Shown: one piece after another, positions 15,180 through 38,753 of the stretch | Numbering within the stretch: the stretch's first letter is position 1 | Layout of the letters: every line of letters starts with the position of its first letter | Source of the DNA: an uncultured Pseudomonadota bacterium | GTDB lineage: Bacteria; Pseudomonadota; Gammaproteobacteria; Competibacterales; Competibacteraceae | Length of the DNA: 39,208 nucleotides | NCBI GenBank assembly: GCA_903844665.1 | Contig: CAIMUS010000010.1 | Coordinates: forward strand, 1-39,208 | Reading direction: 5' to 3' | Translations under genes and position numbers: made by a program | Notes under the pieces: model-generated | What the model was told of the DNA's origin: nothing | Databases searched by the model: none | The model's input: the letters and a program-made list of their open reading frames with translations, nothing else

Positions 15180-16112
15180 TCATCGCAGCACCGCCACATC
15201 GTCCCGATCCTTGAGCAGGGTGGACAGCGCAGGCAGATCGATCAGCGGGCAGTGAGTCAACTTTCTGGCATCCACCCAACCGCGCGCCGCCAGCACGGTC
15301 AGCCAAACCAGCAATTCCGCCGTCGCCGGTTTCTTGCGGACTTCCCGCCCCCGCAGTTCCAGAAAGCGCTGGATCGCCGCTTCCCGCACGTCATCGGGCA
15401 GGTTGGGGAAATCGCCGCCGCGGGCGGCGACGGCGCGGCGCAGCAGTTCCTCGGTAAACTCAATGTGATGGAAGATACAGCGGCGCAGGAACGGTTCCGG
15501 CAGTCGCCGTTCGCTGTTGCTGGTGATGACCACCACCGGCGGCGGCTGTTCTCCCCGATTGACTTTCTGCTTCAACTCGGGAACGACGAACTCGTGTTGA
15601 TCGAGGACGTTCAGCAGATCGTTGGGAAAATCACGCGGCGCCTTGTCGATTTCGTCGATCAACACCACCGTCGGTCCGCCGGCTTCGTATGCCAGCCACA
15701 GCGGTCCCTTATCGATAAACACGGCTTTGCCCGGTATCTGCCCCCGGTTGGCGGGATCGCTGGCGGCGTGCAGATAGGCGACGGCGTCGAAGTGGTAGAG
15801 CAGATCTTCCGCCGTGGTGCTGCTGCGGACGTAGAGCGAAAATAACTCGACCTCGAAATACCAGGCCAGGTAATGGGCGACCTGGGTCTTGCCGGTGCCG
15901 GGTTCGCCGGTCAGCAGCAAGGGCGCGCCGACCGCCAGGGCGACATTGACGGCGTCCACCAGACCGGCATCCGGCTGATAATGTCGGGCGGCGGCGCGGT
16001 GACTGCCGAGAGTTTCGGGCAGAGTCCGCTGCGCCAGCGCCTGGCGGCGGTCGGGATTACGATCGGCGGGTTCCAGCAGTTCGAAGGGGGGCATAGGTCT
16101 GGGCTGCATCAT
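15180..16112 (-). CDS. MoxR-type AAA+ ATPase of a conflict-type locus
   Basis: A 310-aa AAA+ protein with Walker A GEPGTGKT (69-76), Walker B VVLIDEID (149-156), sensor-1 '[10 protein letters not shown]' and arginine-finger region '[11 protein letters not shown]'. The long '[17 protein letters not shown]' insert is typical of MoxR-clade ATPases working with VWA-domain partners. Its ATG overlaps the stop of the TIR gene by one base (TAATG), showing tight coupling. A second ATG follows at once. Partners are probably the TIR protein and the VWA-like/FGE protein across the DGR. I infer a signalling or remodelling role in a defence response rather than metal-cofactor insertion. Confidence 0.85.
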
Positions 16113-18460
16113 TAAAACCGTTCGTCATCGGTGGGCAGGGTGACACTTTGTTCCCGCCGGAGTTTGGACAGCAGGTTACGCCAGGAGCCATTTTCCGCTT
16201 CCCGGATGAGGTCGATGGTGTGCTCGAAATCGCCACCCTTGGCGGCAATCAGACGTTCGGCGACTTCGGACTGAATATCGGGATCGCAGCCGGTGTTGCC
16301 ATCCACCAGGTAATCGTACAGATGGCTTTCCGCTACGTTGTCGAGGGGCGGCAGCGCGCTCAGCCGAAAGGCGGGATGCCTGCACCAGTTCTGCCAGCCG
16401 TATTGTTGCAGAATCTGGGCGAGGCGTTCCAATTTGTCGCTTTTCGCCTCGATGGCGACATAGGAAACGATACGCAGATCGTCGGGGCAGTGGCTGCATA
16501 GAAAGCTGCTGGAGAAGCGCAACCACGTCTCAAGTTCCGACGGCTTGAGCGCCATCTGGTGATTGGCGCCGTCGCCGAAAATACCCCAGTTCAGCCAGAG
16601 TACCGCTTTTTTGCCTGTGCCGGTCACGCGAGGAGCATGGCGGCGCAGCACAAATTTTATGACCGGTTCGTAATCGTCCGGAGCGAGTTGCAGTCCCAGT
16701 TCATATTCCAGATTGCTTTGCAGATTTTGCCGGTTTTCAGGGAACTGTAGTGGTGGCCAGTTGATCTCCGCAACATCTGCGACTTCCAGCTCCAGATAAT
16801 GGCGGAGTTGCTCATGCAGTGAGCCGAGCAGATTGCCCGGAGCAGCATAGGCTACCAGCGCCATGACGCGCCGTTTGTCGCTGCGAACGAGTTCCTTCAG
16901 ATGCTTGCCGACCTGAGCTTTCTGCTCATCCCGATCCAGCACCAGGTAGGCATACTGTTTGCGGGGGTCTGGCGAATAGGTATGGGTTTTCCAGGTTCGG
17001 TAAGTGCTGTGCGCCGCCAGCGTTGCGGCTTGGCCTGCGTCCTGCTGTTTCTTGATGGCGTGCAGGGCGGTGAGCGGGTCTTCACCTTGCCCGAGCCAGC
17101 GGCTCAGCCAGGTAACCGCCTGGGACGTTGCTTCCGGTCCCCATTCCCTGCTCCGCCGCCAGATCACCAGCGACGCCACTTCGCCGAGCAGCCGGCCTGG
17201 AGAAGGTCCGGGATCGGGTGAAGCGGGGGTGTTCAGGTAAATCACCGCCGGGTAGGTTTGCAGTTCGCTGCACCGGTCGGCCAGTTCGGTCAGCCGGATC
17301 GCGCCATCATCCAGCAGCAAAGCGGGACGGTCCGCCGTGCCGGACACGTGTCCGTAAACATAAAGCAGCAGATGTGAGCGCATGCCGAGCAAGGCGTTTT
17401 CCAGCGCCGACCGGGTACGCACGATCCGCACATAATCGGGTTGACGCCCGGTAGGCCAGACTTTTTGCAGTACCTCTTTGATAGCATCAGGATGTTCCGA
17501 GTCGGGTTTGATACCGTTCACCTCCGCCTGTGGGGCAACTATCAGCACCTCGCAAGGAGCATAAGTAGCGCAATCCTCGCTTGGATCGATGACATGGGTA
17601 GTGGTGAACTCCCAGCCACGATCCACCAGCAGCCAGTCATCCCATTTGGTCAGGCACCACGGCAGACGGAGCAATACCGAATTATCGGTACAGATGCGCA
17701 GCCGGACCGGCGCCCAGATCGGATTGAGCGGCGGCGATTGCCGAAACAGGGCGCGAGACACTTTTTCCCAGGATTCCCCGGTTCCGAAGAGCAATTTGAA
17801 GAGGGTTTCGCCGGCTGGATTCTGCGATGCCGGTATATCCTGCCAGGGATGACTGCCGGCGGCGATGGCGTCGGTTCCCGGCAGATAGTAACGGGCATCG
17901 AGCGTGTTGCCATGCCGCGCCAGATGGACGGTGAGTTGATAAGTTCGAGAGCCGGCGGGGTATGGCGCGAGTTGTCTGGGAGGCGGTTCAGGCGGCGGAG
18001 TGGAGGTTTGAACCGTACCGGCCAATTCCCGGATGCGCTCGGTAAGCTCCAGGTACAACTGCTCTTGCTCATGGGTATTACGGGCCAGCAACGGTTTATC
18101 CGGTGTTCCAATCCCTTGAAAGCGGGCGAGTTTGTCGAAATTTTTGACGTCGGAAACTCGCAGAAACACTGGCAGCACGGTCAGTTCGCGCGCCGCCTCA
18201 CGCGCCAGGATGCGCGGCAGTTCCTTGTCATAGATGAAGTCGGAGGCAAGAAAATCCTGGGAAATGAACAACACAGCAGCCGTGGCCGTATCGAGCGCCT
18301 CGATGATTTTCTTGTTCCAGTCTTCACCCGGCTTGATGCCCGTGTCTATGAAGACCTCGATAAGCCGGTCCCGCTCCAGGGGTTTCAAAAAAGGTTGTAA
18401 TTGTTCCAGCGCCTGGCTGTCTTTGTGGCTGTAGCTGACGAAGATTTTTGACTTTGTCAT
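16112..18460 (-). CDS. TIR-domain effector fused to CHAT-like and STAND-like regions
   Basis: A 782-aa cytoplasmic protein. Residues 1-130 are a TIR domain: '[10 protein letters not shown]', '[13 protein letters not shown]' and '[13 protein letters not shown]', with E80 at the usual NADase glutamate. A Pro-rich linker (150-165) follows. Residues ~170-490 look CHAT/caspase-like, with '[11 protein letters not shown]' as the His strand, but the Cys strand reads '[10 protein letters not shown]', so the protease would be inactive. The C-terminal ~280 residues resemble a STAND-like module without a Walker motif. Start is ATG 18460; earlier in-frame codons fall in repeat DNA. It is coupled to moxR by a one-base overlap. 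Domain limits beyond TIR are judgements by eye. Confidence 0.75.
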
Positions 18461-18572
18461 GAGATTTTCTTTTAGGTGATTTCCTGAAAAGATTATACCT
18501 GTGGGTCCAGTCTTTATTCCCCCCCTGCCAAGGGGGGGTGCCCGAAGGGCGGGGGGGCACGTCCGCACGATC

Positions 18573-18620
18573 GAACCACCCCGGCGCTGCGCGCCACCCC
18601 TCCTTATCCAAGGAGGGGAA
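18573..18620 (-). repeat. 48-bp repeat arm upstream of the TIR gene
   Basis: Nearly identical (one difference) and inverted relative to 21382-21429, upstream of the reverse transcriptase gene. It contains CCCCTCCTTGGATAAGGAGGGG and GGCGC/GCGCC palindromic parts. It lies in the 326-bp region between the TIR gene and the divergent 63-aa ORF, which otherwise shows only GC-rich inverted repeats such as that around 18520-18560. Confidence 0.8.
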
Positions 18621-18786
18621 TCCATACCCACCCATACCTGACTTTCCGGTATCACCTTTGCCAGAAATCACCTTATGCCTCCATGGGGTCGGTATTTATG
18701 CCGGCAGATCGGGTTACGCGACGCTAACCCGGCGCGCCAACGGCTACTATAATGCCAGTGTTATCACTAAACTAAAGGACATTTTA

Positions 18787-18978
18787 ATGACTCGATCCAA
18801 TTCTACTCAACAAATGATGGAGCAGGTAGGCCAACGAACAAAACCCCTGCTGTCGCCTGAAGCAGTAGCTTCTGGCAAAGAACTGGTTGAATTCTTTCGC
18901 GTTTCCCCCCTAACTGGCGAAGATATCATATTTGAGCGTGATCGTTCGTCGGGTAGGCCGGTTGAACTGGATTGCTGA
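18787..18978 (+). CDS. 63-aa protein with an antitoxin-like C-terminus
   Basis: The start is ATG 18787 with AAAGGAC 7 nt upstream. The tail 'FFRVSPLTGEDIIFERDRSS' resembles the C-terminal toxin-binding tail (SPL-G--L--ERD-S--R) of many small type II antitoxins. The DNA-binding N-terminus typical of those proteins is missing and no toxin gene follows. Instead its stop overlaps the region where the membrane-anchored FGE protein begins. It may be an antitoxin relic or a small regulator of the DGR target. It is not Avd-like as far as I can see. Confidence 0.5.
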   Translation: MTRSNSTQQMMEQVGQRTKPLLSPEAVASGKELVEFFRVSPLTGEDIIFERDRSSGRPVELDC

Positions 18979-18992
18979 ACCACAAGCTGCGT

Positions 18993-19991
18993 ATGAATGA
19001 GGACAAGTCTAAACCTACCGCAGCAGCTTTGCAGCCCGTATTGACTCTGCGCCGCCTCGACTACCTTCCCCCCTGGCTGGCGATCACCCTGGGCGTCTGT
19101 CTGAGCTTGGGCGCCGTGCTGGTTCCGGCTTCATCCCTGGTCGCCATCATGAGCTTCGTGGCGCTGCTGGGGATCGCCGTGGCCTTGGCTCATGGGGGAG
19201 AACCGATAGCCGAAATCATACGTGAACCGCCCCCTCCGCCGCCCCCTCCGCCGCCTTCACTCGTCGAACTGGTCGATATTCCTGATGGCGTCTTTCGCAT
19301 GGGAAGCACCGAGTTCGACTGGTCGCAACCCGTCCACGAAGTTCATGTCCCCGCCTTCCGCTGCATGCGTTATCCGGTCACCCGGCGGCTTTACCAAGAG
19401 ATCACGGGAAATGATCCCGGCTGGCCGGAAGGGGAAGCCGACGAACGGCCTGTCAATCAAGTTAACTGGTATGACGTGATTGAATTCTGCAACCGCTTGT
19501 CGAAAAAAGAGGGTTTGCAACCCTGCTACCACAAGGACGCAAGCGACGCATGGCAATGCGATGCTCGTGCTGATGGCTATCGGCTGCCCAGCGAGGCGGA
19601 ATGGGAATATGCCTGCCGGGCGGGTACGCAGACGCGCTACTCCTTCGGCGATGACGAGAGTCAGTTGGGGGATTATGCCTGGTTTGGCAAAAACTGGGAG
19701 GATGGAGCGTATCCGGTCGGTCAAAAAAAGCCCAATCCCTGGGGGTTGTACGACATGCACGGCAATGTCTGGGAATGGGCGCAGGATTGTTATCATGACA
19801 GTTACAAGGATGCGCCAGCGGATGGGAGCGCGTGGGAAACTGACAATTGTCAGCGTAGGGTGCTGCGGGGCGGCTCCTTCTACGTCGGGGCCAGGTACCT
19901 GCGCTCCGCGGGCCGGGACAGGGGCGCGCCCGGGGACCGGGGCGGGGACGGCGGCTTCCGCTGTGTGCGAGGATCGCGCCGCCAGCCTTGA
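18993..19991 (+). CDS. Membrane-anchored FGE-domain protein, DGR target 1
   Basis: A 332-aa protein. It has two close transmembrane helices (~26-67), which would leave both ends in the cytoplasm, then a run of ten prolines (79-88) and an FGE/sulfatase-modifying-factor domain (~90-332). The domain has 'DGYRLPSEAEWEYACRAGTQ', 'NPWGLYDMHGNVWEW' and 'VLRGGSF'. The last ~43 residues are VR1. The catalytic Cys pair of true formylglycine-generating enzymes is absent after RGGS, so it is a binding scaffold (C-type-lectin fold) rather than an enzyme. A TTG at 18972 overlapping the 63-aa ORF could be an alternative start. It lies divergent from the TIR gene. Confidence 0.88.
   Translation: MNEDKSKPTAAALQPVLTLRRLDYLPPWLAITLGVCLSLGAVLVPASSLVAIMSFVALLGIAVALAHGGEPIAEIIREPPPPPPPPPPSLVELVDIPDGVFRMGSTEFDWSQPVHEVHVPAFRCMRYPVTRRLYQEITGNDPGWPEGEADERPVNQVNWYDVIEFCNRLSKKEGLQPCYHKDASDAWQCDARADGYRLPSEAEWEYACRAGTQTRYSFGDDESQLGDYAWFGKNWEDGAYPVGQKKPNPWGLYDMHGNVWEWAQDCYHDSYKDAPADGSAWETDNCQRRVLRGGSFYVGARYLRSAGRDRGAPGDRGGDGGFRCVRGSRRQP
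19858..19984 (+). repeat. DGR variable repeat 1 (VR1)
   Basis: This 127-bp repeat is collinear with the TR at 21112-21238. It shows 19 differences, all at TR adenines (16 A to G, 3 A to T). The 98 non-adenine positions are identical. It encodes the C-terminal lectin-like loop of the upstream FGE protein and ends 7 bases before the stop codon finishes. Confidence 0.96.
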
Positions 19992-20013
19992 CGCTTGATC
20001 CTTGACCTTTGAC

Positions 20014-20064
20014 CCGTAGGGCGTAGGCCGGAATAAGCGGAGCCTTTGGCGGAGCGTTTCCGGC
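20014..20064. repeat. REP-like inverted repeat behind VR1
   Basis: GCCGGAA (20027-20033) pairs with TTCCGGC (20058-20064), inside a unit GTAGGCCGGAATAAGCGG that resembles enterobacterial REP/BIME sequences. It lies 43 bp after VR1 and could serve as the hairpin often found downstream of DGR targets. Confidence 0.55.
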
Positions 20065-20081
20065 TCTTTCTGCGTAATCCC

Positions 20082-20215
20082 TTCATCAGTGTTAATCTGC
20101 GGTTCAGACCTCTTCATCAGTGTTAATCTGCGGTTCAAACCTTGTTAATGCGCGGTCCGAACGCCACCATTCAGTCTGAACCGCAGATTGACGCAGATTA
20201 AAGGATTACACAGAT
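20082..20215. repeat. Direct and inverted copies of a TTAATCTGCGGTTCA repeat
   Basis: A 25-bp unit, TTCATCAGTGTTAATCTGCG plus GTTCA, is repeated at 20082-20106 and 20113-20137. A related inverted unit starts TGAACCGCAGATTGACGCAG at 20177 and runs to 20215. The inverted copy supplies the premature stop of the PIN fragment at 20206. Confidence 0.8.
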
Positions 20216-20370
20216 TTTTCTTTAAGCTTAAACAGCTCTATGACGACTTGCTCACAAACGAAAAAGCGGTTCTCAGTGCCCAACAGTATGTCGGCAAAGC
20301 TGGATTGAGTCCGCAGTAAAGCTGAGAACACAATATTCGTATCGACGACAATCGGCTGTCGTTCGGACAT
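20206..20370 (-). pseudogene. Truncated PIN-domain toxin gene
   Basis: The minus strand from ATG 20370 reads MSERQPIVVDTNIVFSALLR and later 'RFFVCEQVVIELFKLKEKSV', then stops. This is the first third of a PIN domain, with the first catalytic Asp in VVDTN and the Glu in 'VIEL'. The remaining acidic residues are lost where the gene runs into a dispersed repeat. It follows the 98-aa antitoxin-like gene by 6 bp, so this was a toxin-antitoxin operon whose toxin is now broken. Confidence 0.75.
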
Positions 20371-20376
20371 CACCCA

Positions 20377-20673
20377 CTACCCCGATAATTTGGATTTGAC
20401 ATTCGACCAGACCTCACGGTCGATCTCTTCGGCCAGGGTAGCCGCTGATTCCTCTGTAAGCTGGCTGCGTTTTCTAATGGCTTCCAGTTCAAGATAGTCC
20501 AAAAGCTCCACGGGATCCTCGAAGCTAATAATTCGCTCTGGCCGAATCGGTTTGGCTGAATCCGCCTCTCGTGCAATTTTCTTACCCCGCTCGAAGAAAT
20601 CTTCGACGCTGGCTGAGCGGATCACAGTCGCTAATTCAGCATCGCTCCTGAGTTCATTTTTTCGCTTGCTCAT
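20377..20673 (-). CDS. Orphaned antitoxin-like protein
   Basis: A 98-aa charged protein starting MSKRKNELRSDAELATVIRS and continuing through a predicted helical middle with 'EDPVELLDYLELEAIRKRSQ'. It directly precedes the truncated PIN gene in the same direction, so it is best read as the antitoxin of that pair. The start at 20673 is preferred over the in-frame ATG at 20718. No family name is recognised. It may still be expressed and could buffer related toxins in trans. Confidence 0.55.
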   Translation of the reverse strand: MSKRKNELRSDAELATVIRSASVEDFFERGKKIAREADSAKPIRPERIISFEDPVELLDYLELEAIRKRSQLTEESAATLAEEIDREVWSNVKSKLSG

Positions 20674-20733
20674 GCAAAACTCTCCAGTCTTTCTCAAAGC
20701 GCTCTTCGATGTCGTCATAAGACACGAAATGAA

Positions 20734-20876
20734 CGTAATCGTTTAGCTCCCTCTTCCCCGCTTGCACAAACAGGGGGGAGGTATCGATTTTTCCCCTCCT
20801 TGGATAAGGAGGGGAAAGCATCAATACCTACCCTTGTCAGCCCTGCAAGCAGGGGAGAGGGGACTAAACGGTTACG
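20734..20876. repeat. 143-bp MITE-like element with ~33-bp terminal inverted repeats
   Basis: The left end CGTAATCGTTTAGCTCCCTC is mirrored by the right end, whose reverse complement begins CGTAACCGTTTAGTCCCCTC. Both continue into CCCC(G/T)GCTTGCA. The middle holds another small palindrome, CCCCTCCTTGGATAAGGAGGGG. There is no coding potential. It lies between the orphan antitoxin gene and the DGR template. Confidence 0.7.
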
Positions 20877-20928
20877 TTGCGCGCTGTTCGCGAGCCAGCC
20901 CGCTCCTACAAAAGCACCGGCAAATGCG

Positions 20929-21055
20929 TAACCGTTCAGACCCCTCTCCCCAACCCTCCCCCACAAGGGGGGAGGGAGTTTTTGCAAAACAGCCGTTTAG
21001 CCTATTCCCCCTCCCCTTGAGGGAGGGGGTTAGGGGGAGGGGTGTGAATGTTTAC
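20929..21055. repeat. 127-bp GC-rich palindromic element, copy 1 (next to TR)
   Basis: The ends are inverted (TAACCGTTCAGACCCCT... versus ...AGGGGTGTGAATGTTTA), and the interior has CCCTCCCCCACAAGGGGGGAGGG. A second copy of equal length is at 28451-28577. This copy ends 56 bp before the DGR template and may therefore contribute to, or insulate, transcription of the template RNA. Confidence 0.8.
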
Positions 21056-21111
21056 GCAAATGCGGCTACAATACCGGCCGTCAGGCCCAATGAATCCCGA
21101 TCTTGCTGAAT

Positions 21112-21238
21112 GGGTGCTGCGGGGCGGCTCCTTCAACAACAGGGCCAGGAACCTGCGCTCCGCGAACCGGAACAGGAACACGCCCGAGAACCGGAACAGG
21201 AACAACGGCTTCCGCTGTGTGCGAGGATCGCGCCGCCA
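21112..21238 (+). repeat. DGR template repeat (TR)
   Basis: A 127-bp non-coding template with 29 adenines, 26 of them packed in the middle, mostly as AAC and AGG codon-like triplets. AAC triplets are the signature of DGR templates because adenine mutagenesis of AAC cannot create stop codons. It matches VR1 and VR2 exactly outside adenines, with one exception in VR2. It lies 195 bp upstream of the reverse transcriptase gene on the same strand. It is in frame with a short ORF (MNPDLAEWVLRGGSF...), a trace of its origin from an FGE gene. Confidence 0.96.
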
Positions 21239-21298
21239 ACATGCTGCTTATCGAGCACCATGCAGGGTCTGACCGGGGCTGGTTCCCCGACATCCCCC

Positions 21299-21341
21299 GC
21301 CCGCCCGTTCTGGTAGCCTTGCGGCGAACGTCCGGGCGGGC
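21299..21341 (+). ncRNA. Hairpin between TR and reverse transcriptase gene
   Basis: GCCCGCCCG (21299-21307) pairs perfectly with CGGGCGGGC (21333-21341) around a 25-nt loop. In studied DGRs the RNA between TR and RT is structured and needed for cDNA priming. This hairpin is a candidate for such a part. That role is inferred from position only. Confidence 0.4.
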
Positions 21342-21381
21342 ACCCTTCTTTATATAGCGCTCCTATACCGGTTGTGGAATT

Positions 21382-21429
21382 TTCCCCTCCTTGGATAAGG
21401 AGGGGTGGCGCGTAGCGCCGGGGTGGTTC
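21382..21429 (+). repeat. 48-bp repeat arm upstream of the reverse transcriptase gene
   Basis: Inverted relative to 18573-18620 with a single mismatch. It ends 4 bp before the reverse transcriptase start codon, so the gene's leader is made of repeat DNA and no separate ribosome site is evident. Confidence 0.8.
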
Positions 21430-21433
21430 GACG

Positions 21434-22432
21434 ATGCGTTCAGTTCCGGCAGGTTCATTCGAACGGTTGAGCAGCCTGGAGTCCCTTTGGGTGGCCTGGC
21501 TGTTGTGTAGCCGTGGTAAACGGCGGCAACCGCACATGGCGACCTTCGATCTGGATGCCGATACCCATATCATCCGCCTGTACCGGTCTTTGCACCATGG
21601 TTTCTATCGGCCAGCACCCTATCGTCTGTCCGTGGTGCGCGATCCCAAAACCCGCCTGATCGCGGCCCCCGCTATCGTCGATCGCATCGTGCAACAGGCC
21701 CTGCTGAACGAGATCGCGCCGACCTACGAGCGGGGCTTTATCGACCAGAGTTATGCGTGTTGCCGCGGACGGGGACCCCATCGGGCGGTGTTGCAATATT
21801 TAAGTTGGACCCGGCGTTACCGTTACCGCCTGTCGCTGGATGTGCACCGTTATTTCGCCTCGATTCATCATGAGACCCTGTATGAGTTGTTCGCCCGCCG
21901 GTTGCAGGATTCCAGAACCCTGGATCTGATCGCGCGTATGCTGGCCGCCGGTGGTCAGGTGTATCAGTCGCCGCTGGCGGTGGCCGCGCTTAAACTGCAA
22001 GACGATCCGGTGCCGCCGGGTTGCGGTTTGCCGCTGGGAGGTTATTTGAGTCACTGGTCGGGCGGGTTGTATCTGGACGGTCTCGACCATTACGTCAAGC
22101 GGGTGCTGAAGCTACTGGCTTATTTGCGCTATATGGACGATTTCACCCTGTTCGGCGACGACCGCGCGGCGCTGGAAGAGGCCCGTGAAACGATTCGGGA
22201 ATGGCTGCGTAGTGAACGGCGGCTGGAATTGAATCCGCATCGTCAGGCCGTACAGCCCACCGCCCAACCCAGTACGTATCTCGGCTTCCGGGTCAGCCAG
22301 GCAGGGTTATTGCCGGGTCCCAAGGCCAAACGGCGGTTGCGCCAGCGCTTGCACAATGCCGACACGCTGGGTCCCGACCGGCTGGCGCGCAGTCTGCGCG
22401 CTTACCGGGGGGTGCTTTTGACCATCGGTTGA
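21434..22432 (+). CDS. DGR reverse transcriptase
   Basis: A 332-aa reverse transcriptase of the diversity-generating type. The N-terminus 'LWVAWLLCSRGKRR' and 'DPKTRLIAAPAIVDRIVQQA' match DGR RT regions. Motif A is 'LSLDVHRYF' (D136), and the active site YMDD is at 233-236. The hallmark (I/V/L)GxxxSQ segment reads LGGYLSH at 201-207, with His in place of Gln. There is no maturase or endonuclease domain, unlike group II intron enzymes. It reverse-transcribes the upstream TR with adenine infidelity. It is convergent with the 1150-aa target gene, whose VR2 begins 131 bp after its stop. No Avd accessory gene is visible nearby. Confidence 0.95.
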   Translation: MRSVPAGSFERLSSLESLWVAWLLCSRGKRRQPHMATFDLDADTHIIRLYRSLHHGFYRPAPYRLSVVRDPKTRLIAAPAIVDRIVQQALLNEIAPTYERGFIDQSYACCRGRGPHRAVLQYLSWTRRYRYRLSLDVHRYFASIHHETLYELFARRLQDSRTLDLIARMLAAGGQVYQSPLAVAALKLQDDPVPPGCGLPLGGYLSHWSGGLYLDGLDHYVKRVLKLLAYLRYMDDFTLFGDDRAALEEARETIREWLRSERRLELNPHRQAVQPTAQPSTYLGFRVSQAGLLPGPKAKRRLRQRLHNADTLGPDRLARSLRAYRGVLLTIG

Positions 22433-22555
22433 TAGGGGATGTGATGACAAAATGACAATGACAATGACAAATTGTTATTAACAAAATGACAAATTGTAAA
22501 TTTGGCCGCCGACCCCGCTTCGCGGGGTAAAAGGTCAAGAGTCAAGCGTCAAGCG
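22433..22555. other. Short AT-rich spacer between the RT and target 2 ends
   Basis: It contains repeated AATGACA units, two copies of AATGACAAATTGT, then a 7-bp hairpin (ACCCCGC/GCGGGGT, 22512-22528) and repeated GTCAAG(C/A)GTCAAG. The hairpin and the GTCAAG repeats lie just beyond the 3' end of VR2 in its reading direction. Confidence 0.7.
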
Positions 22556-25500
22556 TCAAGGCTGGCGGCGCGATCCTCGCACACAGCGGAAGCCGCCCTT
22601 CCCGTCCCGGTTCTCGGGCGTGCCCCTGCCCCGGACCGCGGAGCGCAGGACCCAGGCCCCGACGTCGAAGGAGCCGCCCCGCAGCACCCTTAACTCACAG
22701 TTGTCAGCTTCCCATGCGCTGCCATCCGTCGGCGCACCTTTGTAATTGTTATGATAACAATCCCGCACCCATTCCCAGGCATTACCGTACATGTCGTACA
22801 GCCCCCAGGGGTTGGGCTTCTTCTGGCCGATGGGGTGGGCATGATCATTCGAGTTCTCCGAAAACCAGGCATAATCTCCCAACTGCCTCTCATCATCGCC
22901 GAAGGAATAACGTGTCTGCGTGCCGGCGCGGGCGGCGTATTCCCATTCTGCTTCGGTCGGCAAGCGGTAAGGCTGCCCTGTCTGCTTCGTCAGCCATTCC
23001 ACGTAGGCATTGGCATCATTCCAACTGACACAAACCACCGGGTGGTCATCGGTTTGTGGAACTCCTGGATCCCGCCAGTTCTTACTGACATCGTACTTTC
23101 CTGTGCTTCCAGTCCAGACATAACAGCCGCCGCCTTTCTCCGCTTCGGTCCGGTAACCAGTCGATTCTACGAATTTTTTGAACTGTCCTACCTTTACTTC
23201 GTACTTGCCCATCGAGAACTCGCCCACTTTAACTTTATGCGCCGGGCCTTCACTGTCGTAACGGTTTTTCTCGCTATCCGGCGACCCCATCATAAACTCA
23301 CCCGGACAGATCCGAATGAAGGTGATGCCGTTCTGGTCGGTTTCTTCCATCGGTTGACAACCGCCAATGCCGCGCAGCAGGCATTCCTTATCACCTTCCA
23401 CTGCCACATCCGGCAGCTTAGCCACAGAGCGGACACCCTCGAAACGCAGCGCCTGCGTCAATGCCGACCAGTTGCCAGCGCGCAGCAAGGCGCTCGCTCC
23501 GCCGGAAAGCAGCAGACCGGCTGTCTGCGCCGGCTTACCCGCCGTGAAGACCAGCAACTGCTGTCCGTCTCCCAATCGTTCATGCAGTCCCAGTAACGCC
23601 TGCCGCTGGCGTGGCCAGTTCGGATCGATCAACACCACGTCCGCACCGCCGCTGGTGAGCAGATCGATGGCCAGATCTGCTATGGCGGCATCGCCCGGTT
23701 TGGCCACCAACACCACCAAGCTGCGCTGGATATCGGCGGCCAACGGCCCTGCCTCCACCTGACCACAGCGCCATAATTCCGCTCCGTCCTCCAAGGTCTC
23801 CACACAGCGCCGTTCCTGCCGGCTCCAGTTCACTGTCACTTGAGCGGCCGGCACGGTTTCCGTGGACTCCAAGGTTTTGCGCGTATGGACGGACACCCGC
23901 CAGCGGTCGGCTGCCGATTCGGTCCGGTCCCCTGCATCCGCCGGTTTTTCCGGGCCATGCACGATGACCGGTGGCCCGCCGGGCAATACCGTCGGACTTT
24001 GCCAGGCGGTCCAGCATTCTCCCAGCATCAGCCCCAGACAGATGCCCAATCCCAGCCACAGGCGGCCCGGCTTGCGCAGCCGTACCACCGCCATACGGCC
24101 GCCGAATCCCATGGCCTGCAACATCGCCTGCTCGACCGCCGAGCGCTGCTCCCAGCGCCAGGGCAGTTGGATACATCCCTTTCCGCCGCCGCCAAGCGGC
24201 GCCAGGCGGCTGAGTTGCCGTTCGATCACAGCTTGCAATGATCCCTGATGCAGCCGATAGAGTTCGGGTATCGCGACTTCAGGCCGCCGCCAGAGCAAAA
24301 TCAGGTTGTATTCCAGCACCATCTGGCGATGGGCAGGCGTAGCCTTGAAAGACACAACGCCATCATTGGCCAAGCGCCGCTCTATCTCCAGTTCATAGCG
24401 TTCTTCCCAGAATTGCAGCGCCCGATCGAGCAGACTGTCCTGGGCGATGCCGCCAGCCGGATGGGTCTCGGCGTCCCGCAACCAGTTGAGCAGTTCAACC
24501 CGTCGGTCGGGACTCCATTGCAATCGCCCGCCGGGCCCCGCCGCTTCGTCGCGCAAGTCCCGCAAGGCCCACGGCGAAACACCGAGGCCGAGCCGTCGCC
24601 GCAACGTCAGGGCGGTGGCTTCGTCCACCGAAGCCGGCGCCAACGCGCAGACCGCCGCCCAAGCGGTATCGTCATGGCCCCAATCCTGCAACGGTTTGAT
24701 TGCCGTACTGCCGCCGAGAAAGGCCGCCAGACCGGCGGGCGCGATTCGCTCCAGATCGTGTTTCGCCAGCATCCAGGCCAGGTTATTACGGTCGGCGGAA
24801 AAATCGACGAAGGCCAGTTGCGGCCAGTGCGACAGACCGCGCAACAAGGCATCGATGCGCGTGCGCCGATCATCGACGGCATACTGGCGGGCCAGCGCGC
24901 GTCCGTCGGTGAGCACCGCCACCAGCGCCAGGTCGCGGCGCTCGTCGATCTCGTGGGGAGCGAACACCGCTCCCTCCGGCGTCACCAGACGATCCGGGAT
25001 GCCCCGGAACAGCGCCCGCTCCGCCACCAGTCCGTAGGCATGGAGGATGGCTTCGATCTCATCGGCCAGCCGCAACAGGGCGGAATCCTCGACGGTCTCG
25101 TCCAGCCACAGCCAGACTTCGCGTTGATAGGAGGCCCGTTGATGCTGCACCGTGAGGATGCCGCCCCGGCGTGCGGTGGCTTCGACCGTGGCGGGCAGAT
25201 CGAGATGACGGCTGGGTTCATCGGCGATGAACCGGCCTATGCCCCAGACCAGCGCTTCCTGCTGGCGGGCGTCCAGCAGTTGCGGGCCACTCAGCTTCGG
25301 CGGTTGCAGGAACACTCGGGGCGGACCGGGGCGGGTGGGTTCCGGTTTGAACTCCGGCAGCCAGCGTTTCCGGCCCAGAGTGAACCAAAGTGCACCCGCC
25401 GTCAGCAGGGCCAATCCACCCAGACCCAACGCCGGCCAGCCGGTCCACTTCGCCGCCGGCGACGTTACGGCGAGCGTGGGCATCCAGGTGGTGAAAAGCT

Positions 25501-28933: not shown

Positions 28934-29114
28934 GGGCGGGTATCCACTTAAGCCGGGACACTTTAGTTATCGCCTCGGACTTCAGGATCTTGGCGGCATC
29001 GCGATCGACATAACATATTGGACATAAAACTGTCCCGCCTTAAGTTGGTAGCCCACCTGCAAAATTTAACCCATTGAAATTACTAAATGTCCCGGCTTAA
29101 GTGGATGCCCGTCC
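28934..29114. mobile_element. 181-bp MITE-like element with 27-bp terminal inverted repeats
   Basis: The left end reads GGGCGGGTATCCACTTAAGC then CGGGACA. The right end (29088-29114) is its reverse complement with two mismatches, and the similarity extends inward (ACTTTAGT / ACTAAATGT). There is no ORF inside. A third, partial TGTCCCGCCTTAAG lies internally. It ends one base before the ATG of the restriction-modification gene. Confidence 0.7.
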
Positions 29115-29115
29115 C

Positions 29116-32100
29116 ATGGACCCCATCGAAGTCTATCTCGACCAACTCCAGCAAAACCTGCAAACCGGCCAGGCCACCGAGCACACCCATCGTCCGGCAC
29201 TGCAAAATCTCATACAGAGCCTGCTACCCACGGTGCAGGTCTTCAATGAACCGCGCCACATCGAGTGTGGCGCGCCCGATTACGTAATTCAACGCGGCGC
29301 CGAGCCGCTGGGCTATATCGAGGCCAAGGACATCGGTGAAAACCTCGACAAAGAGCAAAAATCCGACCAGTTCAAACGTTACCGGGACTCCCTTAACAAC
29401 CTGATTCTCACTGATTATCTTGAATTTCGCTGGTTTCTGGAGGGCGAATACAAAGCTGACATGACCGTGCGGCTGGCGGAAGTCGATAACACAGGCCAGT
29501 TAAAACGGTTCCCCGAAAATTTCCCTGCCTTACAGACGTTGCTGGAAACTTTCGGTGAAGCGCAAGCCATCACCCTGCGAGGCCCCGATGAACTGGCCGC
29601 GACAATGGCGAAAATCGCCCGCCTGCTGCGGGATTTGATTGTTCGCGCCTATCGGCAGGAAGGCCCGAACGGGAAACTTCACGTCCAGCTTGAGAGCTTT
29701 CGCAAAGTTCTGCTCGACTATCTCATGCCGGAACCGTTTGCCGACATGTACGCGCAGACGATCTGTTATGGGCTGTTCGCCGCCAAATGCAGCGCGATGG
29801 GGCAGCCCTTCTCCCGGATTTATGCCGGTTACTATGTCCCCAAAACCAACCCCTTCCTGCGCAACCTGTTCAACCAGATCGCCGGGGTGGAACTGGATGA
29901 CCGCCTGGTGTGGATCGTGGAGCAGCTGGTGGCGGTGCTCAACCGCACCGACATCGCCGCCATTTTGGCCAACTTCGGCAAGCGCAGCCGGCAGGAAGAC
30001 CCGGTCGTGCATTTTTATGAGACCTTTCTGGCACAGTACGATCCCGTTTTGCGGGAAATGCGAGGCGTTTATTACACCCCGGAGCCGGTGGTGTCTTACA
30101 TCGTGCGTTCGCTGGATGGGGTGCTGCGGCGCTCCTTCGGCCTTAAAGATGGACTGGCGGACAGCAGCCGTCTGACACCGACGGTGCATAAGGTGCAGAT
30201 CCTCGACCCGGCCACCGGCACGGGAACATTTCTGTATGCGGTGTTCGCCCGGATTTTCGAGCAGTTTCACCATAACAAGGGCTTGTGGTCGGGCTATGTC
30301 TCCCAGCACCTGCTACCGCGGGTGCATGGTTTCGAGTTGCTGATGGCGCCTTATACCGTCGCCCACATGAAACTGGGATTACAGTTGCAGGAACTGGGTT
30401 ATGACTTTCACAGCGACGAGCGGCTGCGGGTGTTTCTGACCAATACGCTGGATCAGCCGCATCACAGTGAAATGACGCTGCTGGCCAAGTGGCTGTCGGA
30501 TGAGGCGAATGCGGCCAGCGCGGTGAAACAGGACATGCCGGTCATGGTCATTTTGGGAAATCCGCCGTATTCCGGGCATTCGGCGAATAAGGGTGACTGG
30601 ATCGATAATCTGCTGCGCGGCGTCGCCAGCGGCCACAACGGAGAACAACCCATCGCCAATTACTTTCAGGTGGACGGCCAGCCGCTCAAGGAGCGCAATC
30701 CAAAATGGCTGAATGATGATTATGTAAAGTTCATCCGTTTTGCCCATTGGCGGATTATGCAGACGGGTTACGGCGTATTGGGCTTTGTCACCAATCACGG
30801 TTATCTGGACAATCCAACGTTTCGCGGCATGCGCCAGGCGCTGATGCGTGATTTTGACGAGATTTATCTACTGGATCTCCACGGCAGCAGCAAAAAGAAG
30901 GAAAAAGCACCGGATGGAAACCCTGATAAAAACGTGTTCGATATTCAGCAAGGTGTAGCGATAGGGATATTCGTTAAGTCTGGCCAGAACAGTGAGCAGC
31001 CGGCCAGGGTATTTCATGCGGAATTGTGGGGCGAGCGGAAAGGGAAGTATCAGTGGTTACTGGAAAACGATTTGACAACAACGGCTTGGAAAGAATTAAA
31101 GCCACAGGCTCCGTTTTATCTATTTGTGCCACAGGATGGAAATTTAAAGAAAGAGTATGAAGCGGGATGGAAGGTTACGGAGATGATGCCAGTTAATGTA
31201 TTGGGTTTTCAAACCCATAGAGATAATTTCGCAATTAGTTTTGATAAAGAAGTCATACAACATCGCCTATTGGAAATGCTCGATCCAGAGATTTCAGATT
31301 TAGATCTCGCCAGAAAATATGGCTTGCGGGATAACCGAGATTGGAAACTTAATGAAGCAAGAAACTTGTTACGAGAAGATAAGGAATGGAAAAACAAGAT
31401 TATCAGATGCTTGTATCGACCTTTTGACCAACGTTACTGCTACTTTAGTGAAGTAGCAATGGATTATCCAAGACGAGAGTTAAAAATTCATGTTGCTGAA
31501 AAAAATAACTTATGTTTTAATTTTGTTAGGCAAACAAAAATGAAGTCATGGCAGCATGTTCTAGCATCAAATTCTTTGGCTCCAGCAGTTTGTATTGAAG
31601 TTAAAGATGGTTCCAGCATTTTTCCTCTTTATCTGTATTCGGAGCAACAAACCAGTCTGTTTGCTGCCACCTCCTCACATTCTTCAGAACCCAAACGCCA
31701 ACCCAACCTCTCCCCGCGCTTCATTCAAGACCTGGAAACCCATCTCCAACTCCAGTTCGTTCAAGAGGGCACCGGCGATTTACAAACCACCGTCGGTCCC
31801 GAGGACATTTTCCATTACATGTATGCTGTATTCCACAGCCCCACCTACCGCCAGCGTTACGCTGAATTTCTCAAAATCGACTTCCCGCGCCTGCCGCTGA
31901 CCAGCGATAACAACCTGTTCCGTGAACTCGCCGCGGTGGGGCAACAACTGGTGAATATCCATCTGCTGGAAGCCGATGTTCAAAAGGACAGTAATTATCC
32001 AGTAGCCGGCGATAATAAGGTGGAAAAAATCGAATACAAAGACGAAAAAGTGTATATCGACAAAACTCAGTACTTCGAGAAGGTAAAACCAGATGTGTGG

Positions 32101-32274
32101 GAGTTTTACATCGGCGGTTATCAGGTCTGCCAAAAATGGTTGAAAGATCGTAAGGGACGTATTTTAAGCTACGACGATTGCGAGCATTACCGGTATATTC
32201 TGGCAGCCATTGAACGCACGCTTGCGCTGATGGAGGAAATCGATGAAATCATCCCTGGATTTCCGTTGTCCTGA
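29116..32274 (+). CDS. Single-chain type ISP-like restriction-modification enzyme
   Basis: A 1052-aa protein. An N-terminal PD-(D/E)xK nuclease is suggested by 'GAPDYVI' (D55) and 'GYIEAKD' (E69, K71). A helical linker follows, then an N6-adenine methylase with DPATGTGTF (364-372) and NPPY (482-485). The second half would hold target recognition and the Type-ISP C-terminal domain. No helicase motifs (DEAD/DEAH) are seen between nuclease and methylase, so it is shorter than LlaGI/LlaBIII-type enzymes. Codons for residues ~610-850 are AT-rich compared with the rest. Start is ATG 29116, directly behind a MITE-like repeat; a GTG at 29101 lies inside the repeat. Confidence 0.85.
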   Translation: MDPIEVYLDQLQQNLQTGQATEHTHRPALQNLIQSLLPTVQVFNEPRHIECGAPDYVIQRGAEPLGYIEAKDIGENLDKEQKSDQFKRYRDSLNNLILTDYLEFRWFLEGEYKADMTVRLAEVDNTGQLKRFPENFPALQTLLETFGEAQAITLRGPDELAATMAKIARLLRDLIVRAYRQEGPNGKLHVQLESFRKVLLDYLMPEPFADMYAQTICYGLFAAKCSAMGQPFSRIYAGYYVPKTNPFLRNLFNQIAGVELDDRLVWIVEQLVAVLNRTDIAAILANFGKRSRQEDPVVHFYETFLAQYDPVLREMRGVYYTPEPVVSYIVRSLDGVLRRSFGLKDGLADSSRLTPTVHKVQILDPATGTGTFLYAVFARIFEQFHHNKGLWSGYVSQHLLPRVHGFELLMAPYTVAHMKLGLQLQELGYDFHSDERLRVFLTNTLDQPHHSEMTLLAKWLSDEANAASAVKQDMPVMVILGNPPYSGHSANKGDWIDNLLRGVASGHNGEQPIANYFQVDGQPLKERNPKWLNDDYVKFIRFAHWRIMQTGYGVLGFVTNHGYLDNPTFRGMRQALMRDFDEIYLLDLHGSSKKKEKAPDGNPDKNVFDIQQGVAIGIFVKSGQNSEQPARVFHAELWGERKGKYQWLLENDLTTTAWKELKPQAPFYLFVPQDGNLKKEYEAGWKVTEMMPVNVLGFQTHRDNFAISFDKEVIQHRLLEMLDPEISDLDLARKYGLRDNRDWKLNEARNLLREDKEWKNKIIRCLYRPFDQRYCYFSEVAMDYPRRELKIHVAEKNNLCFNFVRQTKMKSWQHVLASNSLAPAVCIEVKDGSSIFPLYLYSEQQTSLFAATSSHSSEPKRQPNLSPRFIQDLETHLQLQFVQEGTGDLQTTVGPEDIFHYMYAVFHSPTYRQRYAEFLKIDFPRLPLTSDNNLFRELAAVGQQLVNIHLLEADVQKDSNYPVAGDNKVEKIEYKDEKVYIDKTQYFEKVKPDVWEFYIGGYQVCQKWLKDRKGRILSYDDCEHYRYILAAIERTLALMEEIDEIIPGFPLS

Positions 32275-32353: not shown

Positions 32354-33151
32354 TTACTTGATAAACGGCTGCAACAGCAACCAGTGCAGCCCCACCGAGC
32401 GGCGGTCCCGAAAAATATTTAACCCGATAGTCATGCCGGTATGGCCCTCGCAGGGCTGCGCCCGATAGGTCCCGAACCAATGATCCCACCAGGGCAGATT
32501 GAACCCGAAATTGCTATCGGTTTCGTCGCGCTGGATGGAATGATGCACCCGGTGCATATCGGGGGTGACGATAACCAGCCGCAACCACGATTCCAACCCG
32601 GCGGGTATTTGCACATTGCCGTGATTGAACATAGCGGTGGCGTTGAGAATCACCTCGAACAGCAATACCGCCACCGCCGGCGCGCCTAATAGCACCACCA
32701 CGGCGATTTTGAGCAGCATCGACAGCACGATCTCGAAGGGATGGAAGCGCAGTGCCGTGGTCACGTCGATATTGGTATCGCTATGGTGGACCCGATGCAA
32801 ACGCCACAGCAGCGGCACTTTATGGAACACCACATGCTGGGCGTAAATGACCAGATCCAGCAGCAGCAGCGAGGCGATACAGGCGAACCAGAAGGGCGCC
32901 TCCAACTGGTTGAACAAACCCCAGCCACGATTCCGCGCCTCCAGGGCGGCGCCGACCGCCAGCATCGGCAGCAGCCAGCGCAATACCAGGCTGTCGACGA
33001 TCACCATGCCCAGGTTGGCCGGCCAGCGGCGGATGCGCGGCAGAGTCAGGGAACGGCGTGGCCGCCGCCATTCCCACAGCGCCATGAACAGCAGGATAGC
33101 CAGAAAGCAGACCAGGCGGATGGTGGGTTCGTGCGGTAACAAGATGGTCAT
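32354..33151 (-). CDS. Sterol desaturase / fatty acid hydroxylase family membrane protein
   Basis: A 265-aa integral membrane protein with the di-iron histidine motifs of the family: HVVFH, HRVHH and a second HRVHH, set among 4-5 hydrophobic helices. Such enzymes hydroxylate or desaturate lipids; the substrate here is unknown. Its ATG overlaps the stop of the upstream PIN toxin gene (ATGA). It is therefore the third gene of an AbrB-PIN-desaturase operon, an unusual place for a lipid enzyme. The 27-bp repeat follows its stop. Confidence 0.88.
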   Translation of the reverse strand: MTILLPHEPTIRLVCFLAILLFMALWEWRRPRRSLTLPRIRRWPANLGMVIVDSLVLRWLLPMLAVGAALEARNRGWGLFNQLEAPFWFACIASLLLLDLVIYAQHVVFHKVPLLWRLHRVHHSDTNIDVTTALRFHPFEIVLSMLLKIAVVVLLGAPAVAVLLFEVILNATAMFNHGNVQIPAGLESWLRLVIVTPDMHRVHHSIQRDETDSNFGFNLPWWDHWFGTYRAQPCEGHTGMTIGLNIFRDRRSVGLHWLLLQPFIK

Positions 33152-33570
33152 GAGGCGGCTGGATCAGTGCGCGCATTTACCTCCAGCACCCGCACCAAAG
33201 GCGCAATCCCGGCATCCCGCGCCCCCCGGCAAAAACTGTGATCGAAAGTATGCATAACGGCATTACCGCACGCCGCCAAATGCAGCGCATCGGCAAAATC
33301 GGCGCCGAGGCGATACCACCCCAGCGCCTGTTTGACGCTGTTATGTTCCTCGATGGTCGTATTTTCTGCATCGAGCAGGTCCTTGAAAAAACCTGCAATC
33401 TGGTCGCGAGTCTTCTTGTATGAAGCACGCAAAACCCACTCAGTTTCCAGCAGGACAGTCCGTGGGATAAACACCTCATGCGATAACAGCAAACGCCTGA
33501 CGATTGCGACCTGACCGAGGTCGTCGTTGACCGCCGCACGCACAAGCAGGTTGGTGTCGAATGCGATCAT
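33148..33570 (-). CDS. vapC: VapC-type PIN-domain toxin
   Basis: A 140-aa PIN protein starting MIAFDTNLLVRAAVNDD. It has Asp in FDTN, Glu in 'LLETEWVL', Asp in 'GADFADALHLAA' and a closing Asp in 'HTFDHSFCRGA'. The nuclease residues all look intact. The ATG overlaps the antitoxin stop by four bases, and the gene's own stop overlaps the start of the desaturase gene in the same way. Confidence 0.88.
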   Translation of the reverse strand: MIAFDTNLLVRAAVNDDLGQVAIVRRLLLSHEVFIPRTVLLETEWVLRASYKKTRDQIAGFFKDLLDAENTTIEEHNSVKQALGWYRLGADFADALHLAACGNAVMHTFDHSFCRGARDAGIAPLVRVLEVNARTDPAAS

Positions 33571-33851
33571 CGACTGCGTTTCTCGGACTCTTCCCAATCA
33601 GCGCTGTAATCGACTGGGGCAAACAGGACTTCATCTGGAATCGGGGGACCATCATGCTGAAGACACCCGATTAAATCCTCCAGTCGATGCTTACCCTTTT
33701 TTGGCTTAGGCTGGAGCATGATACTGTCGCCGGTCGGGATAACGGTCAGTTCCATACCCGCATCCCAATGCAATTGCTCGCGGATGGCTTTAGGGATAAC
33801 GATCTGTCCCTTGCTGGAAAGCTTGATAGTCTCGGTTTTGGCAGGCTGCAT
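33567..33851 (-). CDS. vapB: AbrB/MazE-type antitoxin
   Basis: A 94-aa protein with the AbrB fold signature 'IKLSSKGQIVIPKAIREQLH' at the N-terminus and an acidic C-terminal tail ('DYSADWEESEKRSR'). The ATG at 33851 is supported by GGAG 7 nt upstream and by the position of the AbrB motif; an upstream in-frame ATG at 33896 is less likely. It heads the three-gene overlapping operon with the PIN toxin and the desaturase, probably autoregulated. It follows metH in the same direction, 47 bp beyond its stop. Confidence 0.88.
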   Translation of the reverse strand: MQPAKTETIKLSSKGQIVIPKAIREQLHWDAGMELTVIPTGDSIMLQPKPKKGKHRLEDLIGCLQHDGPPIPDEVLFAPVDYSADWEESEKRSR

Positions 33852-33898
33852 GACGATCTCCGGGTAGTATATTTCTACACACCATTGGACAGCCAAAA

Positions 33899-38312: not shown

Positions 38313-38753
38313 ATGAAAACCCTCTACCTTGATGTCTGCGTCCTTTGCCGCCCATACGATGACCAGAATCAGCTTCGCATACGCCTTGAAACGGATGCGG
38401 TGTTCCTGATTCTGAAGCGCATCGAAACCGGGCTTTATCGTGCGGTCGTATCGCCAGCCCACTACAAGGAGGTTGGCGCGATTTGGGAAACCAGCGAGCG
38501 GCTTGAAATGGAAAGCCTGTTGAGCCGGCTGGATAAATCGTGCGAATGCAATCTTGTCCAAGCCCGCCATCGTGCCGAGGCTTTGATCAACATGGGATTT
38601 GGCATCGCCGACGCCGCCCATGTCGCCTTCGCCGAACAGTTAGCGGAATTCTTCATTACCTGCGATGACAAATTACTGAAGCGGTGCACGCAGGCCGCAT
38701 TGCGTATCGCCGCAATGAGCCCGCTCGAATTCATAGCCCAGGAGAAACCATGA
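38313..38753 (+). CDS. PIN-domain protein, probable toxin ribonuclease
   Basis: A 146-aa protein starting MKTLYLDVCVLCRPYDDQNQ, a PIN variant like 380-826, with 'GIADAAHVAFAEQLAEFFIT' and a closing 'CDDKLLKR'. It is followed by a 70-aa partner overlapping by ATGA. Order and overlap are the same as in the pair at the left end of the window. The leader has an AT-poor repeat and no striking promoter. Confidence 0.78.
   Translation: MKTLYLDVCVLCRPYDDQNQLRIRLETDAVFLILKRIETGLYRAVVSPAHYKEVGAIWETSERLEMESLLSRLDKSCECNLVQARHRAEALINMGFGIADAAHVAFAEQLAEFFITCDDKLLKRCTQAALRIAAMSPLEFIAQEKP

Follow-up and report, generated by a model that had tools for sequence, protein, structure and literature searches.

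Adenine-only variable repeat as a probable record of past homing in a seemingly degraded cellular diversity-generating retroelement

The 127-bp repeat VR1 at the 3' end of a short gene in the analyzed DNA (the window, 39,208 nucleotides of contig C10 from an uncultured Competibacteraceae bacterium) is almost certainly the target of a cellular diversity-generating retroelement (DGR). The fuller reading that we favor is probable rather than firm: VR1 is a DGR target in a conflict-system setting, the cassette around it is partly degraded, and the repeat records past homing and is not an efficient target at present. According to the proposed mechanism, RNA of the template repeat (TR) would be copied by the reverse transcriptase (RT) of the element, which errs at adenines, and the mutated cDNA would replace the variable repeat (VR). 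The rewritten codons would then sit in the lectin-like domains of two target proteins, one short and one long, which both have hydrophobic segments. Present activity, if any, would be more likely at the second variable repeat, VR2, and would need Avd encoded at another locus of the genome. The coordinates of all features are collected in Table 1.

The ungapped comparison of VR1 with TR (19858-19984 against 21112-21238) reproduced the alignment claimed in the earlier note: 19 substitutions, every one at a template A, and none at the other 98 positions. Sixteen of the changes were A-to-G and three A-to-T; A-to-C was not seen. TR holds 29 adenines among its 127 positions, and random placement would put all 19 differences on them with a hypergeometric probability of 1.1e-15. 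The repeat boundaries were sharp at both ends and the VR1 changes stopped there. VR2 differed from TR at 18 positions, 17 of them adenines (13 changed to G, four to T), with one C-to-G change at TR position 92; for both VRs pooled, 36 of the 37 differences were at template A. VR2 was absent from the earlier finding on VR1. The A-only footprint itself is textbook for DGRs, and its attribution to mutagenic homing in the earlier note is supported by the A-only VR1, the A-biased VR2 and the DGR-type RT beside the template. The accompanying claim, activity of the element since the last homing event, is neither shown nor implied by this pattern. A-only differences arise from the homing event itself, and therefore the VR1 pattern cannot show activity after it; the identity at the 98 non-A positions would say only that there has been little ordinary mutation, or strong selection, since homing.

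Table 1. Features of the cassette and its surroundings in the window.
Feature	Position	Strand	Remarks
MoxR-like AAA ATPase	15180..16112	-	AAA_5 E 3e-14; overlaps the TIR gene by one base
TIR-domain protein, candidate effector	16112..18655	-	TIR_2 E 2.3e-13; PADLOC ThsB-type TIR E 5.4e-20
Short target gene, 339 aa	18972..19991	+	N-terminal part hydrophobic, then a proline-rich linker; FGE-sulfatase (C-type-lectin-like) domain at the C-terminus
VR1, variable repeat	19858..19984	+	3' end of short target gene; 19/19 differences from TR at template A
Dispersed repeat	20016..20064	+	starts where VR1/VR2 downstream homology stops; at the site of the expected VR1 hairpin
Dispersed inverted-repeat pieces	20069..20215	.	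between VR1 and TR; cut a PIN-like reading frame
Antitoxin-like ORF (20377-20718) and truncated PIN-like frame (about 20216-20376)	20216..20718	-	labels by eye
MITE-like repeat	20927..21056	.	upstream of TR, where C96 and L042 have Avd
TR, template repeat	21112..21238	+	last three A (TR positions 113, 116, 127) unchanged in both VRs
Spacer TR-RT	21239..21433	+	conserved stem 21299-21307 / 21333-21341
DGR reverse transcriptase, 332 aa	21434..22432	+	YMDD present; motif 4 GLPLGGYLSHW (SH, not SQ)
VR2 hairpin, GAA loop, 7-bp stem	22512..22528	-	35-51 nt downstream of VR2
Long target gene, 1150 aa	22556..26008	-	C-terminal FGE-sulfatase domain with VR2; Pfam E 3.7e-65
VR2, second variable repeat	22563..22689	-	17/18 differences from TR at A

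Two explanations without reverse transcription were weighed against this footprint. Simple duplication of the lectin-like domain with later divergence would account for the paralogy of the VR1 and VR2 genes, which extends beyond the VRs. However, the two VRs agree at 97 of 98 non-A positions, as compared with 221 of 280 in the homologous 280 bp just upstream, which argues for rewriting from one template and against a mere old duplication. The 59 differences in these flanks are mixed, only 22 of them involving A, in contrast to the repeats, and duplication with drift, to which we assign a negligible probability, is ruled out by the directional A-only pattern inside the VRs. A-to-G editing or deamination of the repeat would agree with the 29 A-to-G changes among the 36 at adenines, but the other seven are A-to-T transversions, the changes end with the repeats and an RT of the DGR type adjoins the template, all of which make this explanation scarcely credible. 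Fourteen template adenines were changed in both VRs. At 11 of these the new base was identical, where a hand calculation based on the G/T proportions predicts about 9.6, and the changes in VR1 and VR2 are compatible with separate events.

The last three adenines of TR (TR positions 113, 116 and 127) remained unchanged in both VRs (0/6, p 0.002 given 36/58 changed overall). For comparison, 36 TR/VR pairs found in 28 of 52 scanned loci were used. Their selection required that 75% or more of the differences fall at A, the direction of each pair being the one that gave the highest A share, and the A bias of this set is therefore the selection rule. Over these pairs, A was changed in 123/246 cases in the last 35 nt and in 420/725 elsewhere, so the unchanged 3' adenines of the window cassette reflect no strong general rule.

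In the draft assembly (348 contigs, 4.9 Mb), five TR matches were obtained at E <= 0.001, namely TR itself, VR1, VR2 and two places in a diverged second cassette on contig C96. The RT query gave four matches, on C10 (window), C96, C333 and C114, and one or more A-biased repeat pairs are present at every one of these loci. The C96 cassette (L040) shares with the window the order VR1(+), TR, RT(+), VR2(-), an RT with 60% identity, a short (373 aa) and a long (1171 aa) target, and differences at A (16/16 and 11/13). Unlike the window, it carries a gene for HTH_17, an Avd split between two frames, the SQ motif in its RT and hairpins at both VRs, and its MoxR gene adjoins the long target. At L040:8830-9718 the HTH_17 gene is followed by the two Avd halves in different frames, a frameshift or an assembly error.

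Two cassettes from other genomes resembled that of the window. The Lamprocystis sp. MAG (L042) has the same order, an RT with 59% identity and differences at A of 19/19 and 16/17; it differs by an open-frame HTH_17 over the cut-off, an open-frame bAvd match just under it (39.8 of 40 bits), and two targets that are both long, with metallophosphatase, one of them with NACHT domains. In C96 and L042 alike, two A-biased VRs are present and HTH_17 and Avd lie between VR1 and TR. The closest RT (69%) was that of a Holophagales MAG (L041), in which short and long FGE targets, a MoxR with 74% identity to that of the window, and a homolog of the C-terminal part of the TIR protein (46% identity over residues 317-847 of the latter) were also found. 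The long target, MoxR and the TIR C-terminal homolog stand side by side there, and the locus ends before any TIR domain could be seen. In contrast to the window RT, the L041 RT is without about the first 66 residues (the match begins at query residue 67), and the repeat scan of this locus found no TR; L041 thus shows another form of decay. At L041:5538-6798 an HTH gene overlaps this N-terminally short RT. The Bordetella phage BPP-1 DGR is like the window in the A-only TR/VR changes, the spacer RNA, the downstream hairpin, which in the window is present at VR2 and not at VR1, and the RT fold of 8ub7, and unlike it in the phage tail target and Avd in cis.

The RT of the window was matched by RVT_1 (E 6.4e-18) and, in phmmer, by 8ub7 (E 1.4e-28). 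Its AlphaFold model (pLDDT 87) had as the best PDB match the same 8ub7, a DGR ribonucleoprotein RT (TM 0.82 on query), which we take to be the BPP-1 RT. The best NCBIfam model was a group II intron RT, far under the cut-off (123 of 300 bits). On viral contigs three RTs were found at 28-29% identity, and among plasmids at E <= 1e-30 five records at 31.8-37.9%. In the RT tree, the window, C96, L041 and L042 grouped at 100/100. Motif 4 was of the DGR type in 41 of the 52 loci (38 SQ and three SH, the latter being the window, L041 and L042), and of the group II type in five, while six yielded no motif; the three SH RTs alone grouped at 94/88, just below the star of the tool. The (I/V/L)GxxxSQ motif, usual but not defining for DGRs, is replaced by LGGYLSH in the window. 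In PMC3521204, SQ is given for 90% of DGRs, SH is among the variants in 15/155 with A exchanges, and whether motif variants are errors or recent inactivations is left open. Damage to the window RT as the source of its SH motif was rejected, as the RTs of L041 and L042 carry SH too. The other cassette with an SH-type RT and a TR, L042, has 35 of 36 differences at A when its VRs are pooled.

A consensus fold of the spacers of the window, C96 and Lamprocystis contained 34 pairs, eight of them with at least one two-sided compatible change, from only three sequences; the spacer is likely part of the template RNA bound by the RT. Rfam at gathering thresholds gave no match in the window or the C96 locus. 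A scan of 18600-22700 for promoters and terminators returned three promoter-like sites against 1.9 expected and five terminators against 4.6, nothing usable.

Both targets have the arrangement usual in DGRs, a VR at the C-terminus of a protein with a C-type-lectin fold. For the short target, the FGE-sulfatase match in Pfam had E 1.9e-52, and the hydropathy windows start at residues 32-62. The AlphaFold model of its VR1 domain (pLDDT 87) was closest in the PDB to TvpA of Treponema denticola (2y3c, TM 0.86 on query), likewise a DGR variable protein with the FGE-type C-type-lectin fold, but the identity in the structural match is 33% and the organism and gene setting are different. The long target has hydrophobic segments near residues 113-141 and 193-212 by hydropathy, no Pfam domain besides FGE-sulfatase at E <= 0.01, and 45% and 36% identity to the long targets of L041 and C96, respectively. 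TR has 16 variable codons, 10 of which are AAC; none is able to become a stop and 7.5e14 proteins are possible. The FGE-sulfatase profile gave 35 matches in the genome, TR pieces included.

Avd, an accessory gene that is usual in DGR cassettes though not defining for them, was not found in that of the window. The bAvd profile had no match on C10 at E <= 1, no Avd-like ORF of at least 80 aa was listed between VR1 and TR in the window, and no HTH gene was found in this interval, where C96 and L042 have one. Elsewhere in the genome, the profile recognized a copy on C333 over the cut-off, the partial copy on C96 below it, and three weak matches on C195, C303 and C92. The interval between VR1 and TR is occupied by dispersed repeats instead. 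The sequence 20020-20064, or nearly all of it, had at least 21 further matches in the genome (hand count, with 40 of 82 first-look candidates scored), and the MITE-like repeat 20927-21056 recurred in at least 39 other places with 83-95% identity (hand count, 40 of 296 first-look candidates scored). The antitoxin-like ORF 20377-20718 had no Pfam match. Degenerate DGR loci without key parts are also described by Dore 2024 (PMC10907252).

The second difference concerns the sequence downstream of the VRs, where DGRs usually, though not by definition, have a hairpin. VR1 and VR2 share 29 aligned bp there, 26 of them identical, which end at ACCC; VR2 then continues into its hairpin and VR1 into the dispersed repeat. 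For VR1, neither a downstream hairpin by the survey test nor a perfect stem of >4 bp with a loop of 3-8 was found within 200 nt, though folding with RNA parameters allows a longer, imperfect stem in the repeat. The survey test asked for a GC-rich hairpin within 110 nt downstream, with a stem of 6 or more and a loop of 3-4, and was applied to the 35 VRs with enough sequence. Hairpins were present in 20 VRs, 12 of which had at least one with a GNA loop, compared with 3.8% and 0.1%, respectively, of shuffled sequences that kept only the base composition; among TRs, two of 28 had a hairpin and none a GNA loop. Since 15 of the 35 VRs have none on this test, its absence at VR1 need not mean a loss of function. 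In DNA, GNA loops are very stable when closed as GCGNAGC. Outside the survey count, L042 VR1 is followed by a stem of 7 bp (7-nt loop), and the short target of L041 by one of 10 bp (GCA loop); the long target of L041 has none there. The phage DGR hairpins described in PMC3240598 have 4-nt GRNA loops, whereas those of window VR2 and C96 have 3-nt GAA loops. In BPP-1, loss of the hairpin is reported to impair homing severely, with some activity remaining (PMC3240598, PMC12875486).

The spectrum of errors at A was compared among the pairs as well. A-to-C changes made up 0/36 in the window cassette and 2/98 in the window, C96 and L042 together, against 60/445 in the other 30 TR/VR pairs (Fisher 3.8e-4 for the three-cassette group and 0.015 for the window alone); this comparison is weak statistically, as the pairs share ancestry and templates, VRs in genomes are under selection, and the window had already been seen when the three cassettes were grouped. 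With the same limits, an adenine followed by C was changed to C in 0/63 cases in the three cassettes versus 21/356 in the others. For the BPP-1 RT in E. coli, 26.8% G misincorporation is reported at A followed by C (PMC12875486).

The cassette looks partly degraded because HTH and Avd were not found in cis, VR1 has no hairpin and dispersed repeats lie at both places, and for this reason we read the VR1 pattern as a record of past homing. The rival that excludes this reading, and is excluded by it, is a fully active DGR, in which RT, TR and spacer work with Avd in trans or without Avd and both VRs are rewritten now; we consider it rather unlikely. The RT frame is indeed open, of normal length and with YMDD, the spacer is conserved, and VR1 is free of any non-A change. 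Its 98/98 match to TR at these positions would fit recent homing as well as selection. The draft state of the assembly and the single non-A change in VR2 also count against the favored reading. Help in trans has a candidate in the C333 Avd over the family cut-off, and Dore 2024 (PMC10907252) reports targets at incomplete loci for which diversification in trans is the best explanation; the RT of the C333 cassette, however, is only 39% identical to that of the window and the Avd of C96 is the split one. Homing may have continued after the loss of both Avd and hairpin. The rival is further weakened by the missing hairpin of VR1 and by the drop of repair to about 1e-9 in E. coli on Avd inactivation in BPP-1 (PMC12875486).

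A bolder proposal, which seems improbable to us, is that an SH-type RT rewrites its targets although its cassette carries no Avd, and VR1 although no hairpin follows it, with errors at A that avoid C. If true, Avd in cis and the hairpin would not be universal needs, and DGR RTs would differ in their error spectrum. The window provides a natural experiment, clean A-only targets without Avd and without one hairpin, to be compared with a sister cassette on C96 in the same genome, where each VR has its hairpin and Avd is present at least as remains. The pair bears on Avd in trans between cassettes and on the need for the hairpin in a cellular DGR.

The short and long targets, the MoxR ATPase and the TIR protein together form a putative conflict system, whose changeable sensor would be the lectin-like domain. 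The TIR and MoxR genes are neighbors, both on the minus strand, on the far side of the short target. Clade 5A DGRs, as presented in Dore 2024 (PMC10907252), have MoxR directly upstream of a target, one short and one long target, and genes for TIR proteins or peptidases in the vicinity; the sensing of invaders by such sets is the proposal of that paper. DGR 8 of Thiohalocapsa PB-PSB1 is one example, and in the same source the clade is like the window in the MoxR ATPase with a TIR protein nearby, a short CLec-only target, a long target with an N-terminal extension without known domain, several DGRs per genome, and MITE-like repeats replacing DGR parts. Unlike clade 5A, the window has MoxR beside the TIR gene and not immediately upstream of a target, the position that it takes in C96 and L041, and Avd and HTH were not found. 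Apart from the position of MoxR the window fits the description of the clade, and we say of the cassette that it resembles clade 5A without filing it there.

Other sequences in the window were noted in passing. A 57-nt sequence occurs in two inverted copies that are 93% complementary, one at 21382-21438, ending just before the RT start codon, and the other at 18564-18620, within the listed TIR ORF at its 5' end; the former holds a GCGTAGC hairpin (21410) that adjoins no VR. PIN-like genes are located at 380-826, 33148-33896 and 38313-38753, the second being over the Pfam cut-off (33148-33597) and adjoined by a gene for a MazE-type antitoxin, the other two below the cut-off. The region 29101-32274 encodes a large single-chain Type ISP restriction-modification enzyme (Type_ISP_C E 1e-88).
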